A stretch of DNA of 64,000 nt from Phlebiopsis flavidoalba (Eukaryota > Basidiomycota > Agaricomycetes > Polyporales > Phanerochaetaceae), in contig JAOCPU010000009.1 of the NCBI GenBank assembly GCA_035772785.1, positions 434,001 to 498,000 of the forward strand. The letters are read 5' to 3'. The notes under the pieces were generated by a model. It did no database searches. It was given only the letters and a program-made list of their open reading frames with translations, and was not told the DNA's origin. Both the position numbers and the translations under genes were made by a program. Of the stretch, positions 24,534-61,100 are shown piece after piece. Numbering within the stretch: position 1 is the first letter of the stretch; each line of letters starts with the position of its first letter.

Positions 24534-25340
24534 GCCGGCCTCGACTCTCGCCACAAGCCCACCCCACCCCGCCTCACTTCGTTCACCGCCCAGCCTCGTT
24601 CTCGCTGCTTAGGACTCTCTGTGCCTCACCACAGCTCACACTCCTTCGATCACCGACTTATTGCTATTAAATCCCGTCGTTCCGCTTGATGCCACGGCAG
24701 TCCACTCCTTCGACACACCGCGTTCGTTATCCTGTACACATGCCTACCCGTACTGTCGTTTGTTATATTGTCGTCTCGCGTAACTCTGTACCGTTAGTAT
24801 TTATGTGGCACAGTAGTGCGAGCCTATCTCGCCCTGTGTGTAGACTTCTATCGTGTATCCGTAGGAGGTTATATTTATTATGTTGTGGTTATACGTCTAG
24901 CCTGCTGGCCGCAGGGTCAGTCTGCGGGTGTGCATGCAAGGATTTCTACGACGAAACCTCGACACGGGCGGGGCCAAGCTGAGCTGCTGATAGAAGGTTG
25001 CGAGCCCTCCGACCTAGTAGGGTCTCTAGTCGGGACCACCCACTGACACTCCTGACACCTCAGCTTGTCCATGCGTCATCCGCACGACCTATCGACGCGC
25101 ATTGGTGCGGGAACGCAGGCGGCAGCGCGCCAGAGCAGCAAGAATTGCACACGCCGCGGCGGCAGGAGTAGCTTGAGCGTCGGCTTTGCTATGATCTTGA
25201 CCTGTGTCCTCACTGTCAAGTTTCAACTTTGCAAGTTCAAAGTTCAAGTTTTAACTTTTCATGACACTGCTCACTGGTGCTCAGTGCAGGTCTAAATTCG
25301 ACTAAAGTGAAAAAAAAAGTCGCATACGGCAACATCATCA
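24534..25340. other. Intergenic region with an AAGTT/AACTT-rich patch
   Basis: No gene is recognised. Pyrimidine-rich stretches follow the candidate gene. At 25218-25258 short AAGTT and AACTT words alternate, so the patch can fold back on itself. The right end is the 3' flank of the tRNA gene. Confidence 0.4.
25310..25318 (-). terminator. Pol III terminator of tRNA-Gln
   Basis: A run of nine A on the plus strand reads as nine T on the tRNA strand, starting 22 nt downstream of the tRNA 3' end. T-runs of this length stop RNA polymerase III. Confidence 0.65.
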
Positions 25341-25418
25341 GGCGCTACCAGGGCTCGAACCTGGGTTTTGGGAAATTGATTTCAGAATCCCAAGTGATAA
25401 CCACTACACTATAGCGCC
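25341..25418 (-). tRNA. tRNA-Gln(CUG) with a 7-nt intron
   Basis: Read on the minus strand, GGCGCTA pairs perfectly with TAGCGCC as the acceptor stem. The D region GTGTAGTGGTTATCACT is that of fungal tRNA-Gln. The T-arm is CCAGG-TTCGAGC-CCTGG. The anticodon stem is TGGGA/TCCCA. Its loop is TTCTGA-AATCAAT-T: removing the 7 nt at 25375-25381 gives the loop TTCTGAT with anticodon CTG and the intron in the canonical position after base 37. The gene is undamaged, in contrast to the frameshifted coding genes around it. Confidence 0.93.
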
Positions 25419-32584: not shown

Positions 32585-35634
<3,050 letters not shown>

Positions 35635-39300: not shown

Positions 39301-40191
39301 CCTCAGCGAGAAACTTCGGGACGAAATCGAAAGACCAGGAAATCACATCTCGCCGTTAATGACACCCTTACCGTTGGCGGAACTTGAGCGCAGGCTCGCT
39401 CACCAACCACAAGGTCGTCCCATTTGTATCGTTTCGCCTCTGATGATTGGGCAAAACTACTTCAAACTCATCAGCGACCTAAAGAAAGAAGATTCCCCAA
39501 AGGGAACATTACATTCGAAGACGATCAGGAAGAAAGATCATGGATGAGCTAGGAATAGAGCATGCTGGACCCCAAGGCCAATATCAGCATTGATGTAAAG
39601 CTCTTTACTTGCGCTAGGTCACCGATGTTCGCGTTTGCTGAGGATCCGCAAGATCTTTGATCTGCCGTCGATACAGGTCCAAAGGGCTGGAAGCACTCGA
39701 ATGAACATAGCGGACACAAGAGTCGCCACATTGTTCGAGAAGTGGTATGAGGAGGTATGCAGCTATTCGGCGATGTGATCCCATTTATATTTTACTCATC
39801 ATCTTTTGAAACCGTTAGATCTTAGAAGAAACGTACCAAGGACTGCTACAATCCCATAGGCCTTGACAAGGACGGTAGAAAGTTTGAAGATTTATACCTC
39901 ATCGCCTCAGCTCCGTTTTAGCTGGACCACGGCAGTTGCAATGTACTCGTGCATCGTCGGCATTTACCGTCAACACACAACAGTGAGAGTCCTTGCCGGC
40001 GACGAATTGCAACGAGCGCAGGGTTTCCGGAGGTCCTTTGTGCCGAAAATACAACCATCCGCCTCTCGATGGCACGGTAGTGAATACCAGAATAACCGAC
40101 ATTCCGCACCCCCAAACCCTCCTCGCCCATTTCTATCCCCCACCTTCCCTTCGAAGCGGCATATAGCCTCTAAGACTATAACTCCCTAATC
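36332..40191. other. Gene-poor, AT-richer stretch
   Basis: No family is recognised over almost 3.9 kb. Open frames of about 100-130 codons exist on the minus strand (36815-37120, 37226-37624, 37631-37951, 38975-39346) and on the plus strand (39082-39288, 39290-39547), without detectable domains. The stretch may be decayed repeats or lineage-specific genes broken by indels. Confidence 0.4.
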
Positions 40192-40693
40192 ATGCCGCCC
40201 CCGAAAGCATGTCAGGCGGCTCATGCTTGGCAAGCTCATTACAACGGTACCATCTACCCGAGCTCCTATCAGGTTGCATCACCAGGATATCTTTCTCCGA
40301 CGGGAGAGTACAGAGGATATTCTGTGAGCTCTGACGTCTTCGTGGCTACTGATGCTAGAGACTTGATATCCTATTATAGAGTGTTTCAATCGACATATTC
40401 ACGCGCACCTGGAAATAGTGAGCTCTCGTCTATTATTTTCGAGCGCATTGTTACTTTAGCATATATTTGTTTCGAATCCTCCAGATTGGCACGAACTGGA
40501 ACGACAACAACGAATTTCACGGCTATTACGCTGGAGCAACCCCCAAGGGTATCCGCAAACCCGTATTTGCCTCTTTGACGCACTGCTGTTCATCAAAGTT
40601 ACCGCCAAGTGGCGTACTACACGATTAGCTTGGATAGATCTAGATGTATCTAGCTCTAGACACTACCTAGCATCATGTCTCATGAAAGTCTGA
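40192..40693 (+). CDS. Two-exon hypothetical protein, 144 aa
   Basis: I do not recognise this product. The ATG at 40192 follows a pyrimidine-rich leader. Exon 1 (40192-40417) encodes a Tyr/Ser-rich stretch with YPSSYQVASPGYLSPTGEYR. A clean 67-bp GTGAGC...CTCCAG intron (40418-40484) has the size usual for this genome. Exon 2 (40485-40693) stays open for 68 codons (NWHELERQQRISRLLRWS, then LFIKVTAKWRTTRLAWIDLD) to a TGA. The phases fit without any frameshift. A single-exon reading that runs through the intron to a stop at 40576-40578 is the alternative. No signal peptide, membrane segment or known domain is seen. Confidence 0.35.
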
Positions 40694-41494: not shown

Positions 41495-42219
41495 TTACGC
41501 GTCGGGGAGAGCATCCTTCTGAAGAAACGTTGAGGAAGACCGACCAGATGGACAAGAGACGGTGTGCGTACCTTCCAGGTTGTGCTCTGGTATGCGCGAG
41601 CCTCCTCATCTCGCTTCCACGTCGTGCTCTGGTAGGCACGAGCCTCCTCGTCACGCTTCCAGGTAGTGCTCTGGTAGGCACGGGCCTCCTCGTCGCGCTT
41701 CCAGGTGGTGCTTTGGTAGGCACGGGCTTCTTCGTCGCGCTTCCAGTCGGTTACTTCGAACGCGCGGCGCTCCTCATCCTCCTCTCCGCTTCCAGGTGGT
41801 GCTCTGGTAGGCGCGGGCCTCTTCCTCGCGCTTCCAGTCGGTGACTTCGAATGCACGGCGCTCCTCCGCCTCCTCGCGCTTCCAGTCGGTGACTTCAAAC
41901 GCGCGACGCTCCTCCTCCGCGTCGCGCTTCCAGGTGGTGCTCTGGTAGGCGCGGGCCTCTTCCTCGCGCTTCCAGTCGGTGACTTCGAATGCACGGGCGC
42001 TCCTCCGCCTCGTCACGCTTCCAGTCGGTGACCTCAAAGGCGCGCTCCAAAGGGACCGACTTGCGCTCGAGCTCGTTTTGTGACTGTGGGAACGCGACGG
42101 GCGTGTGAGTGGTCGCGGACGGCGGGGACGGCGGGGGGGACACTTACGGGGGTGGGGGCGGCGGCCGCAAAGGATGCGAGGGTGAAGAGCACGGCGAGTG
42201 CGGACGGGGGGAACTTCAT
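41495..42219 (-). CDS. Secreted Kex2-processed repeat precursor (pheromone- or RiPP-type), 11 tandem peptide units
   Basis: The likely product is a secreted prepropeptide cut by the Golgi protease Kex2 into many small peptides. Three exons are inferred: 42219-42148 (24 codons, signal peptide MKFPPSALAVLFTLASFAAA), a 64-bp GTAAGT...CACAG intron, 42083-41572, a 53-bp GTACGC...TTCAG intron, and 41518-41495 ending in TAA. After a short pro-segment (SQNELERKSVPLER) the rest is repeats: cores AFEVTDW (5 copies) and AYQSTTW (6 copies), each followed by Lys-Arg except the last, where the intron follows Lys. Acidic spacers such as DEEAR or EEAEERR link them. Exon 2 is 512 bp; two visible one-base insertions (within GCGCCCG near 42000 and near 41787) explain the excess over 510 bp. 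A dikaritin-like precursor is possible, since a core holds Tyr. No tailoring enzyme is recognised nearby. Confidence 0.85.
41572..42041 (-). repeat. In-frame tandem repeat array encoding 11 core peptides
   Basis: Units are 42 bp (14 codons) or 48 bp (16 codons). The four promoter-distal AYQSTTW units are the most alike and suggest recent duplication; the promoter-proximal part alternates the two core types. Core order from the N-terminus, with F for AFEVTDW and Y for AYQSTTW, is F F Y F F Y F Y Y Y Y. Confidence 0.9.
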
Positions 42220-58112: not shown

Positions 58113-61100
58113 ATGGACGAATTACTACAACATTGCATCCGTGAACTCGCGTTCGAAGGTGACCTCGGTAAGTTGTCGAAATTTTACTCCTAGTCGACGG
58201 CGTATGCCACATGGCGAATGTTTCCCCTTCGTGGGTTCGAACCCCACATCCGCCTCTTTTCGTCGTCATATCTCTGACCGACTTCTCGTACAGGATGCGA
58301 TGCATTTCGCTTGCGAGACTTTATTGCAGACTACCACAGACAGGAAGATTCTCCCCAGCAAGTTGACGATGCATACTGCGCATTCATCTGGTCGATGTAT
58401 CACAACAGCCTGAAGTACGAGTAGGGACTGCACCACAAGGCGTCCCTGAGGTGTATATCGCACCGCAATTCAGCAAGAGAGACAAGGCAAAGCAAGACGA
58501 GGAGGCCTCGATACAAAGCTCTCTCACTCTGATTCCAGATGCTGCTTTGAGGTCGCTGGATGAACTAGAGGCGCAGTACGGCGACGCGCTCAGAATCGCA
58601 GTCGACCCCGAGAGATCCTTCGTCGCACTTTACTGGTTCGCATATCAAGGTATATGCGCTCTGTTTGTTTCGTATCGGAGCGTTTCTAAGAGACCCGCTG
58701 CAGCCCTCTTCTCTCACGCCTCCTGTGTATACATGCTTGCAGCTCATCGCACGGGGCAGAGAGAATGGTTTAAGCGCTGTCGATTTGAATCGCAAGACCG
58801 GTTATGACGCGAAAAACCTGTCATTATTTAATCGGAAAGCTGCTTGCATTTAAACGTCATGTGTGTAGACTCTCTCCTCCCTTGTGTACTATACTCATTT
58901 ATTGCAGCGTCAAACTCAAGAAGTCTGGCGTGGGGACCAATCTATGCATACACAAATACTTCTTCGACAAGAGCGAAAGCTGGAAAGCTGTCTTTGCGGA
59001 GGAAGAGGAGGTCAAGAACGGCGCACAGGGTGATGAAGAGCTCGACGAAGACGCTGATGCGGACGACGGCGACACTAAACCCGTAACTATTCGGTTCGAT
59101 CCAATCGACGTTCAACACCTTGCTCGCATTTCCATCGTGAGAGCGAGGCTCGATAAGCTGCTCAGGAACTGTCCGAATCCACACCCACAAAACTCTCAAC
59201 CTCATCGTTGCGATCGTGAGTACATTCCGCCCTTTCCATAGGAAAAAAACCTTTGAGCTGTCCTTCAGGGTTTCCCAAAATCCGAAAAAGACGGAGAGGC
59301 GTTTCTTTCATACTCGTCTTCGCGAGCTCGAAGCGGAGGGGTTTATCGAAAACCATTCAAGTACGACGATCAAACGGGAAGTATGTCAAATGCGTTCGAC
59401 TTGTCAACGCAGACGTGTCAGGCGATGTCGACGCGGCTGGGGAACAAGGGGAGAGCAGCCTAGATGAAGCTGGTAATAATATGAACACTACTGTGAAATG
59501 CTTTGCATGTCTAAATTCTGATTCACAGAAGGGCAGCAACACTCGTTCAAGGCGACAGTCACCCTCCAAAGGCAGATGTTAGACATAGTTCATGCTAGTG
59601 GCACCGAAGGTACCACTTTGAATGTGAGGCGTCTTCCCATCTAGGCTGTAAATGATTACTGAGTGTTAGCTAGCAAATAGCAGACGCTCCTGAACCAATT
59701 CGACAAACGTGTCTTGGACTTCCAGATCAATCACCTCCGAGATCCTCCTCCGCCTCCGCACCTTCGACATCTGGGTATTGAACAGACTGGAGAAACATAC
59801 GGCCGTGAGCGACGATACAAGTATTACACTCATGAGCACTACGTTCAGGTTGCCGAAAGAGAGAATCTGGAACATCAGTTTCCAGAAGGCTACTTCGACC
59901 TATGTGAACAGTTCGCACCCGCGGATGAGACTATGTTCTACCAGGATACTGCCGATTTCAATCAGTTCGTCGACTAGCTACAAGAACTTAGCTGACCCCT
60001 CGGCGTCTGCGAAGCCAAGAAGAAGTCCGCATCGAGGAAGAACAAGGAGACAGACGGAGAAGTTCAATCGTCGACGCGTGGACGGAAACGCAAGCTCGAA
60101 GAGGCGATGGTGTGGGGTGGCGAATCGGCATCGGCCCCTGTACCAGGCCCGCCGAAGAAACGTGGACGTCCCCCTAAAGAGCCTGCTCCCGATCCCGCTG
60201 AGCCGAAGAAGCGAGGGCGTCCCCCTCAGCAGCCTCCCACTGATGCTACTGTCTCTGCGCCGGCTGCTCCGAAGAAGCGCGGTAGACCGAGAAAGCACCC
60301 TCTCCCGGACTCCGACGAGGCTACTGTCTCTGCACCGGCTGCTCCAAAGAAACGCGGAAGGCCTAGGAGGAATCCTCTCCCTCAACCTTTGGACGAGGAC
60401 AACGACGACTCTGCCCTTGCAGCCCCAGAAGAACCAGAAGATGTATCGATGACAGATCCTGCATCGACCCAGGATCCGCCCTGCTAATTCCACTACACGC
60501 ATCGACACACTTGTCCTACCGCCGTTCTCTGCTTCAGCAACTCCGGTCACAAAGCGCGGTCGGCGTCGCAAGCATCTAGAAGAGGCGGCCGTTGTACCTA
60601 TACCTCCTCAGACAACTAGCGGGCCTTCGAATACTGCGAGGATGTTACAGATATTTCGCTCGCGGCGGAGTCCACATCTGCTCCGGTGACAAGACCGTGG
60701 TCGACGAAACCTCCCCGTTGCTGAAGTGGTGTCTGCCACAGTCCAGGAGGAGACGGTGGCTGCACCTGATGAAGTTGACTCAGCTCTTCCTGAGCCCGTC
60801 TCCGCTCCTAAAAGGCGAGGAAGACCCACCTAAGCCAAAAACGGTGGAAGAACCTCCGAAGACCCGAAGCGACGTGGCCGCCTCTCGAAAGTCAGCACTC
60901 AGGAGCAGGAGGCTGATTCCAACACGACAAGTAACGACGTCGCTCTCGCTTCCGCTGGCGGGGCGGAGGAACGACTCGACGGGCGCACAGGACAGCTCCG
61001 TCGATCGAAATTTCCCATGAAGTCGAACCTTCTTCCTCAATCGGAATGTAAACGAATCACGCAGATGTCACGACTCATCCCGCAACATTGGCAGCTGATC

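Follow-up and report, generated by a model that had tools for sequence, protein, structure and literature searches.

A gene predicted on the minus strand of the Phlebiopsis flavidoalba genome, within the 64,000-nucleotide stretch of DNA analyzed here (the window), encodes eleven regularly spaced repeats, each with a seven-residue core that ends in tryptophan. Judged from its sequence, we hold with considerable confidence that it is a basidiomycete KEX2-processed repeat protein (KEP), which would be cut by Kex2 into Trp-ended peptides. Genes of this class have already been described in mushrooms, and the novelty lies in the exact sequences of the cores, AFEVTDW and AYQSTTW, which appear to be new.

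Structure of the gene

The gene spans positions 42219 to 41495, and direct reading of the sequence places the start codon at 42219–42217 and the TAA stop codon at 41497–41495. Three exons are predicted, separated by GT-AG introns of 64 bases (first) and 53 bases (second). An earlier, sequence-only reading of this DNA had proposed three exons on the minus strand, and its coordinates match ours. The start codon lies in the context CCACCATGAAG, which we take to be Kozak-like. Exon 1 encodes a hydrophobic N-terminus of 24 residues, a putative signal peptide judged by its hydropathy (mean of 2.24 over the 12 residues LAVLFTLASFAA). Basidiomycete mating pheromones are lipidated CaaX peptides, and the predicted C-terminus of the precursor lacks the CaaX motif (Table 1).

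Table 1. Features of the predicted precursor gene, with positions in the window
Feature	Position	Strand	Basis
Exon 1: start codon and hydrophobic, signal-peptide-like N-terminus MKFPPSALAVLFTLASFAAAAPTP	42148..42219	-	read from sequence, hydropathy
Intron 1 (GTAAGT...CCCACAG)	42084..42147	-	predicted from sequence
Leader SQNELERKSVPLER, 5' of core 1	42042..42083	-	sequence
Array of 11 cores, Lys-Arg behind ten	41575..42041	-	frame-wise core search, Tandem Repeats Finder
AFEVTDW cores (first bases)	42041, 41992, 41902, 41854, 41763	-	frame-wise search
AYQSTTW cores (first bases)	41950, 41812, 41721, 41679, 41637, 41595	-	frame-wise search
Spacer between cores 1 and 2, 28 bases, frame change	41993..42020	-	core spacing and sequence
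Spacer between cores 6 and 7, 28 bases, frame change	41764..41791	-	core spacing and sequence
Intron 2 (GTACGC...TTCTTCAG)	41519..41571	-	predicted from sequence
Exon 3: KDALPDA and stop TAA, without CaaX	41495..41518	-	sequence

The repeat array

Searching frame by frame identified five AFEVTDW (F-type) and six AYQSTTW (Y-type) cores, distributed over three minus-strand frames. Their order from 5' to 3' is F F Y F F Y F Y Y Y Y, and successive cores start 49, 42, 48, 48, 42, 49, 42, 42, 42 and 42 bases apart. Every interval corresponds to one unit, so no internal unit of the array has been overlooked. Tandem Repeats Finder picked up the array unaided (41594–42044, period 42, 10.1 copies). Lys-Arg lies behind each of the ten internal cores, providing Kex2 sites between the repeats. 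Behind core 11, a Lys at the end of exon 2 (W-K) and another at the start of exon 3 would give Lys-Lys after the predicted splicing. The spacers vary in amino acids, with most of the exchanges involving Ala and the acidic residues (DEAEER, DAEEERR, EEAEERR, EEEAR, DEEAR). These counts agree with the earlier description of eleven units in two Trp-ended core families with Lys-Arg behind ten, and they support its proposal of a Kex2-processed repeat layout. The regular units with their basic sites, the GT-AG introns and the presumed Kozak-like start together argue for the KEP reading.

A further argument for this reading comes from the way in which the units differ in their bases. Comparison of the five F units (core and KR) and the six Y units (core and K) indicates that at least 12 base changes explain the differences within the core classes. 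All 12 of these minimal changes are synonymous and at third codon positions, compared with an expected synonymous share of 21% for random changes in these codons (transitions weighted twofold). The chance of this outcome is about 1e-8 if the changes are independent, an assumption that duplicated unit blocks make approximate and that weakens the KEP reading to that extent. Cores 2 and 5 are identical in bases, as are cores 3 and 6. No amino-acid change was found within either core class across the eleven cores. A chance repeat was ruled out by the combination of regular spacing and synonymous drift.

Frame breaks and the quality of the assembly

As assembled, with the breaks left unmended, the minus strand holds no single open frame over the array. 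The two 49-base intervals split the cores into three frames (core 1, cores 2–6, and cores 7–11), and they correspond to the two one-base interruptions that had been claimed for this locus. The KEP reading is weakened by this broken frame, and by a signal peptide that is judged by hydropathy.

Assembly error is the likeliest cause of the two breaks, because Mcm3 in the same window is also frame-broken. Mcm3 is an essential helicase subunit. Its gene, at approximately 32.6–34.7 kb of the window, carries the Mcm3-type C-terminal domain (Pfam) and has at least three frame changes (-3 to -1 to -3 to -1) within one conserved stretch (34112–34664, minus strand). A genome-wide search for the Mcm3-type domain gave one match, the Mcm3 in the window; the genome has further MCM-like loci without that domain, one of them on contig C8 with at most 60% identity to the yeast stretch. 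Since the domain was matched nowhere else, a dead copy of Mcm3 is unlikely and the assembly appears to be prone to frame breaks. These errors are spread unevenly, and the exons of the PRELI gene (56.8–57.5 kb of the window) are free of them.

The intact PRELI gene shows that breaks are not universal in this assembly, and together with the two interruptions in the array this would fit a gene in decay, in which both breaks are genuine and the precursor gene is dead. However, the cores have kept their amino acids without exception, and Mcm3 is repeatedly broken despite being the sole genome match to its domain. Decay is therefore very improbable, and the breaks in the array are most simply read as assembly errors.

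The surrounding window

The window contains 134 stop-to-stop stretches of at least 120 residues, and 30 of these, besides the array's own two, were run through Pfam (E ≤ 0.01). Matches were absent for 26 and present for four: MCM, the Mcm3 C-terminal and lid domains, WD40, and RINT1_TIP1, with the last two below their cut-offs. The in-frame neighbor of the WD40 stretch has a weak resemblance to Prp17. Annotation around the array is therefore sparse. On the opposite (plus) strand, a 134-residue open stretch (40174–40575) lies approximately 0.9 kb downstream of the gene, and Pfam was empty for it. Another plus-strand open stretch, at 59996–60484, has four PKKRGRP-like repeats that are presumably AT-hook-like. 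ARAGORN located a tRNA-Gln (CTG anticodon) at 25340–25418 on the minus strand.

Limits of the peptides and possible trimming

Basic residues on the N side differ between the core classes. Arg-Arg precedes three of the five F-type cores, Glu-Arg precedes one (the first core), and the remaining F-type core follows a frame break; Ala-Arg, and hence a single Arg, precedes all six Y-type cores. The heptapeptide limits that had been claimed are therefore firm on the C side and weaker on the N side. The computed linear [M+H]+ values are 867.388 for AFEVTDW and 856.384 for AYQSTTW. For the hexapeptides FEVTDW and YQSTTW they are 796.351 and 785.347, and two 12-mers that include spacer residues have values of 1456.634 and 1470.650.

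One variant, compatible with the KEP reading, is that a Ste13-type enzyme removes Ala-ended dipeptides after Kex2 cutting, giving FEVTDW and YQSTTW. When read from upstream of the core, Arg-Ala stands immediately before F or Y in 10 of the 11 units, and the same holds for the unit that follows the first frame break if it is read in the frame of its core. All eight spacers with an unbroken frame have an even number of residues (6 or 8) from Lys-Arg to F or Y. Furthermore, the genome has a DPPIV/Ste13-type locus (DPPIV_N, two matches, on contig C30), and Ste13-like trimming has been demonstrated in Pichia on Trp-ended KEP cores (PMC9769878). However, in the classical Ste13 signature the dibasic site leads straight into successive X-Ala or X-Pro dipeptides. 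This distinguishes the mushroom KEPs described in that study from the array, where the dipeptide right behind Lys-Arg ends in Ala in only one of nine readable spacers (the tenth, frame-broken right behind Lys-Arg, was left out of the count). Overall, we regard such trimming as possible but somewhat doubtful.

A related question is whether the peptides could resemble alpha-type pheromones. In ascomycetes, the precursors of these pheromones are Kex2-cut repeats with acidic and Ala-containing spacers. Trp-ended forms with a -PCW motif also occur among them (PMC6339444), but by eye their cores are unrelated to AFEVTDW and AYQSTTW. The same source describes the mating pheromones of basidiomycetes as other than Kex2-cut repeats (PMC6339444). 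The receptor searches also count against a pheromone-like signal. A search of the genome for the STE2 receptor was empty, but its controls were empty too, which makes this weak evidence of absence. Eight matches to the STE3 pheromone receptor were found on contigs C23, C32, and C69, with none on C9, the contig of the array; these are likely to be receptor genes, some possibly at a mating locus.

Comparison with dikaritins

In a dikaritin-type precursor the same cuts would be followed by cyclization of the cores by UstYa-type oxidases, via Tyr or other side chains. The dikaritins ustiloxin, phomopsin, and asperipin come from Kex2-cut repeat precursors like the array gene (PMC9233826), Tyr is present in six of the eleven cores, and the genome has four UstYa (DUF3328) matches, three of them above the family cut-off. 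These matches are on three other contigs (two on C18, approximately 3 kb apart, and one each on C50 and C59). In contrast to the dikaritins, the array gene has no UstYa match on its own contig in an exon-wise search, which a split gene could escape. In addition, the F-type cores are without Tyr, and Pfam was empty for ten stop-to-stop stretches lying up to approximately 8 kb from the array. Across the Basidiomycota KEPs of a large survey, a UstYa-type gene is reported nearby in 103 of 1680 (6.1%) (PMC7329392).

A k-mer scan found no repeat precursors beside the UstYa loci in four pieces of 8–10 kb. On the window, the same scan flags five of 791 stretches, four overlapping the array and one AT-hook-like. 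Tandem Repeats Finder returned just short repeats or a C run, or nothing, in the four UstYa pieces. The location of all the UstYa matches on other contigs makes linear peptides likelier than dikaritins, to which we assign only a slim chance. The comparison with dikaritins in the sequence-only reading thus holds for the Kex2-cut repeat layout and is weakened by the location of the UstYa matches.

Searches for relatives and paralogues

No relatives of the precursor were found by a protein search of a set of 5.8 billion proteins, which scored the candidates sharing most words (7993 in one run and 2927 in the other). As a control, PRELI was run against the same set and gave 294 proteins at E ≤ 0.001. 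Among the best 120 of these, the closest was an environmental protein (96%), and others that ranked high were from Phanerochaete carnosa (81%), Trametopsis cervina (79%), Steccherinum ochraceum (79%), a Paxillus (79%), and Trametes polyzona (77%). Phanerochaete and Trametopsis are genera of the Polyporales, and these matches by themselves make an agaricomycete source nearly certain and one in the Polyporales likely. The set holds many basidiomycetes, and the control does not establish that diverged KEPs would score. Acidic low-complexity words crowd such a search and diverged KEPs would hardly reach significance, so the absence of relatives is weak evidence. It nevertheless weakens the KEP reading to some degree. 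The strings AFEVTDW and AYQSTTW were not found in any of the 5.39 million papers searched, a scope outside which supplementary KEP tables fall; with the protein search, this bears out the suggestion that the cores are undescribed.

Searches were also made within the genome itself (36.3 Mb in 129 contigs). A degenerate pattern of Trp-(Lys/Arg)-Arg followed by acidic residues or Ala gave 60 matches, nine in the array and 51 elsewhere, compared with 35 for its reversed control. Paralogue arrays were rejected on this pattern, as no two of the 51 outside matches were nearer than approximately 3.4 kb. Searched at the protein level, the genome yielded six matches, of which five were from the array and one was a weak match on contig C26 (E 0.18), dismissed as a paralogue since by eye it is an open stretch without repeats. 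Pfam gave nothing above its curated cut-off for the array's two frames.

Relationship to known KEPs

KEPs are widespread across fungi (PMC7329392). One survey covered 250 secretomes (PMC6339444), and one of 1461 strains reports 7878 KEPs, with presence in 271 of 317 Basidiomycota strains and a mean of 5.30 per Basidiomycota strain (PMC7329392). More than one type of repeat per KEP is frequent, and 2560 of the surveyed KEPs are reported as having no homologue (PMC7329392), which makes the lack of relatives nothing unusual for a KEP.

Several described agaricomycete KEPs share both layout and Trp ends with the array gene, which supports its assignment to this class. For example, Coprinopsis cinerea KEP 490115, Pleurotus KEPs 1091723 and 1439342, and Lentinula edodes KEP 2599 are likewise secreted repeat precursors, with dibasic sites between units and short Trp-ended cores (PMC9769878). 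KEP 490115 also gives two Trp-ended cores, QMRPPSW and QYKAPSW, the latter produced in Pichia, and the Trp-ended peptides SGVAADW and SGTGEASAADW were detected in mushrooms by mass spectrometry (PMC9769878). Some mushroom KEP peptides were verified against synthetic standards, and the knock-out of six KEP genes in Coprinopsis is described as giving no apparent phenotype (PMC9769878). The mushroom cores that end in -ADW compare with -TDW here, and otherwise the cores differ, in a comparison by printed cores only (PMC9769878). The proposal that the array represents a different class of peptide consequently is not supported, as basidiomycete KEPs, including those with C-terminal Trp cores, are already in print (PMC7329392, PMC9769878).

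Proposed processing and biological significance

A Kex2-cut secreted precursor is a very probable mechanism, as far as the gene itself indicates. The genome matches the Kex2-type P-domain once, on contig C1, and this match, with the DPPIV/Ste13-type locus, is a further reason for the KEP reading. The putative N-terminal signal would lead the precursor into the secretory pathway, where Kex2 would cut behind the Lys-Arg of each core and after the Arg-Arg ahead of several F-type cores. A Kex1-type carboxypeptidase would then strip the basic residues. The output would be a linear, Trp-ended mixture of AFEVTDW and AYQSTTW at approximately 5 to 6, plus short acidic spacers, and the released forms may carry a few N-terminal residues more or fewer than the heptapeptides. 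Such peptides would most likely act extracellularly, as a signal or toward other organisms, although this is a guess.

The F-type cores are mostly dibasic on both sides (three of five, as readable), so Kex2 alone could free AFEVTDW. The Y-type cores have only Ala-Arg on their N side, and their release would call for another protease or for weak cleavage at the single basic residue. Products of Coprinopsis KEPs expressed in Pichia were apparently cut after a single Arg, so Y cores may come free as AYQSTTW, perhaps less efficiently (PMC9769878). Alternatively, they may leave as longer forms, or as YQSTTW via a dipeptidyl aminopeptidase. A more speculative proposal, which we consider unlikely, is that a single transcript carries two signals, each released by its own rules, and that the peptide ratio is set post-translationally, as in a small counterpart of a prohormone.

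Taken alone, the array gene is one further entry in the known catalogue of KEPs. The strict conservation of the two core classes provides short, defined candidate ligands that can be synthesized cheaply, and their unlike N-side sites offer a simple test of whether peptide output is determined by the sites. If the two-signal proposal were true, it would provide a fungal parallel to a prohormone that is processed differently by tissue.
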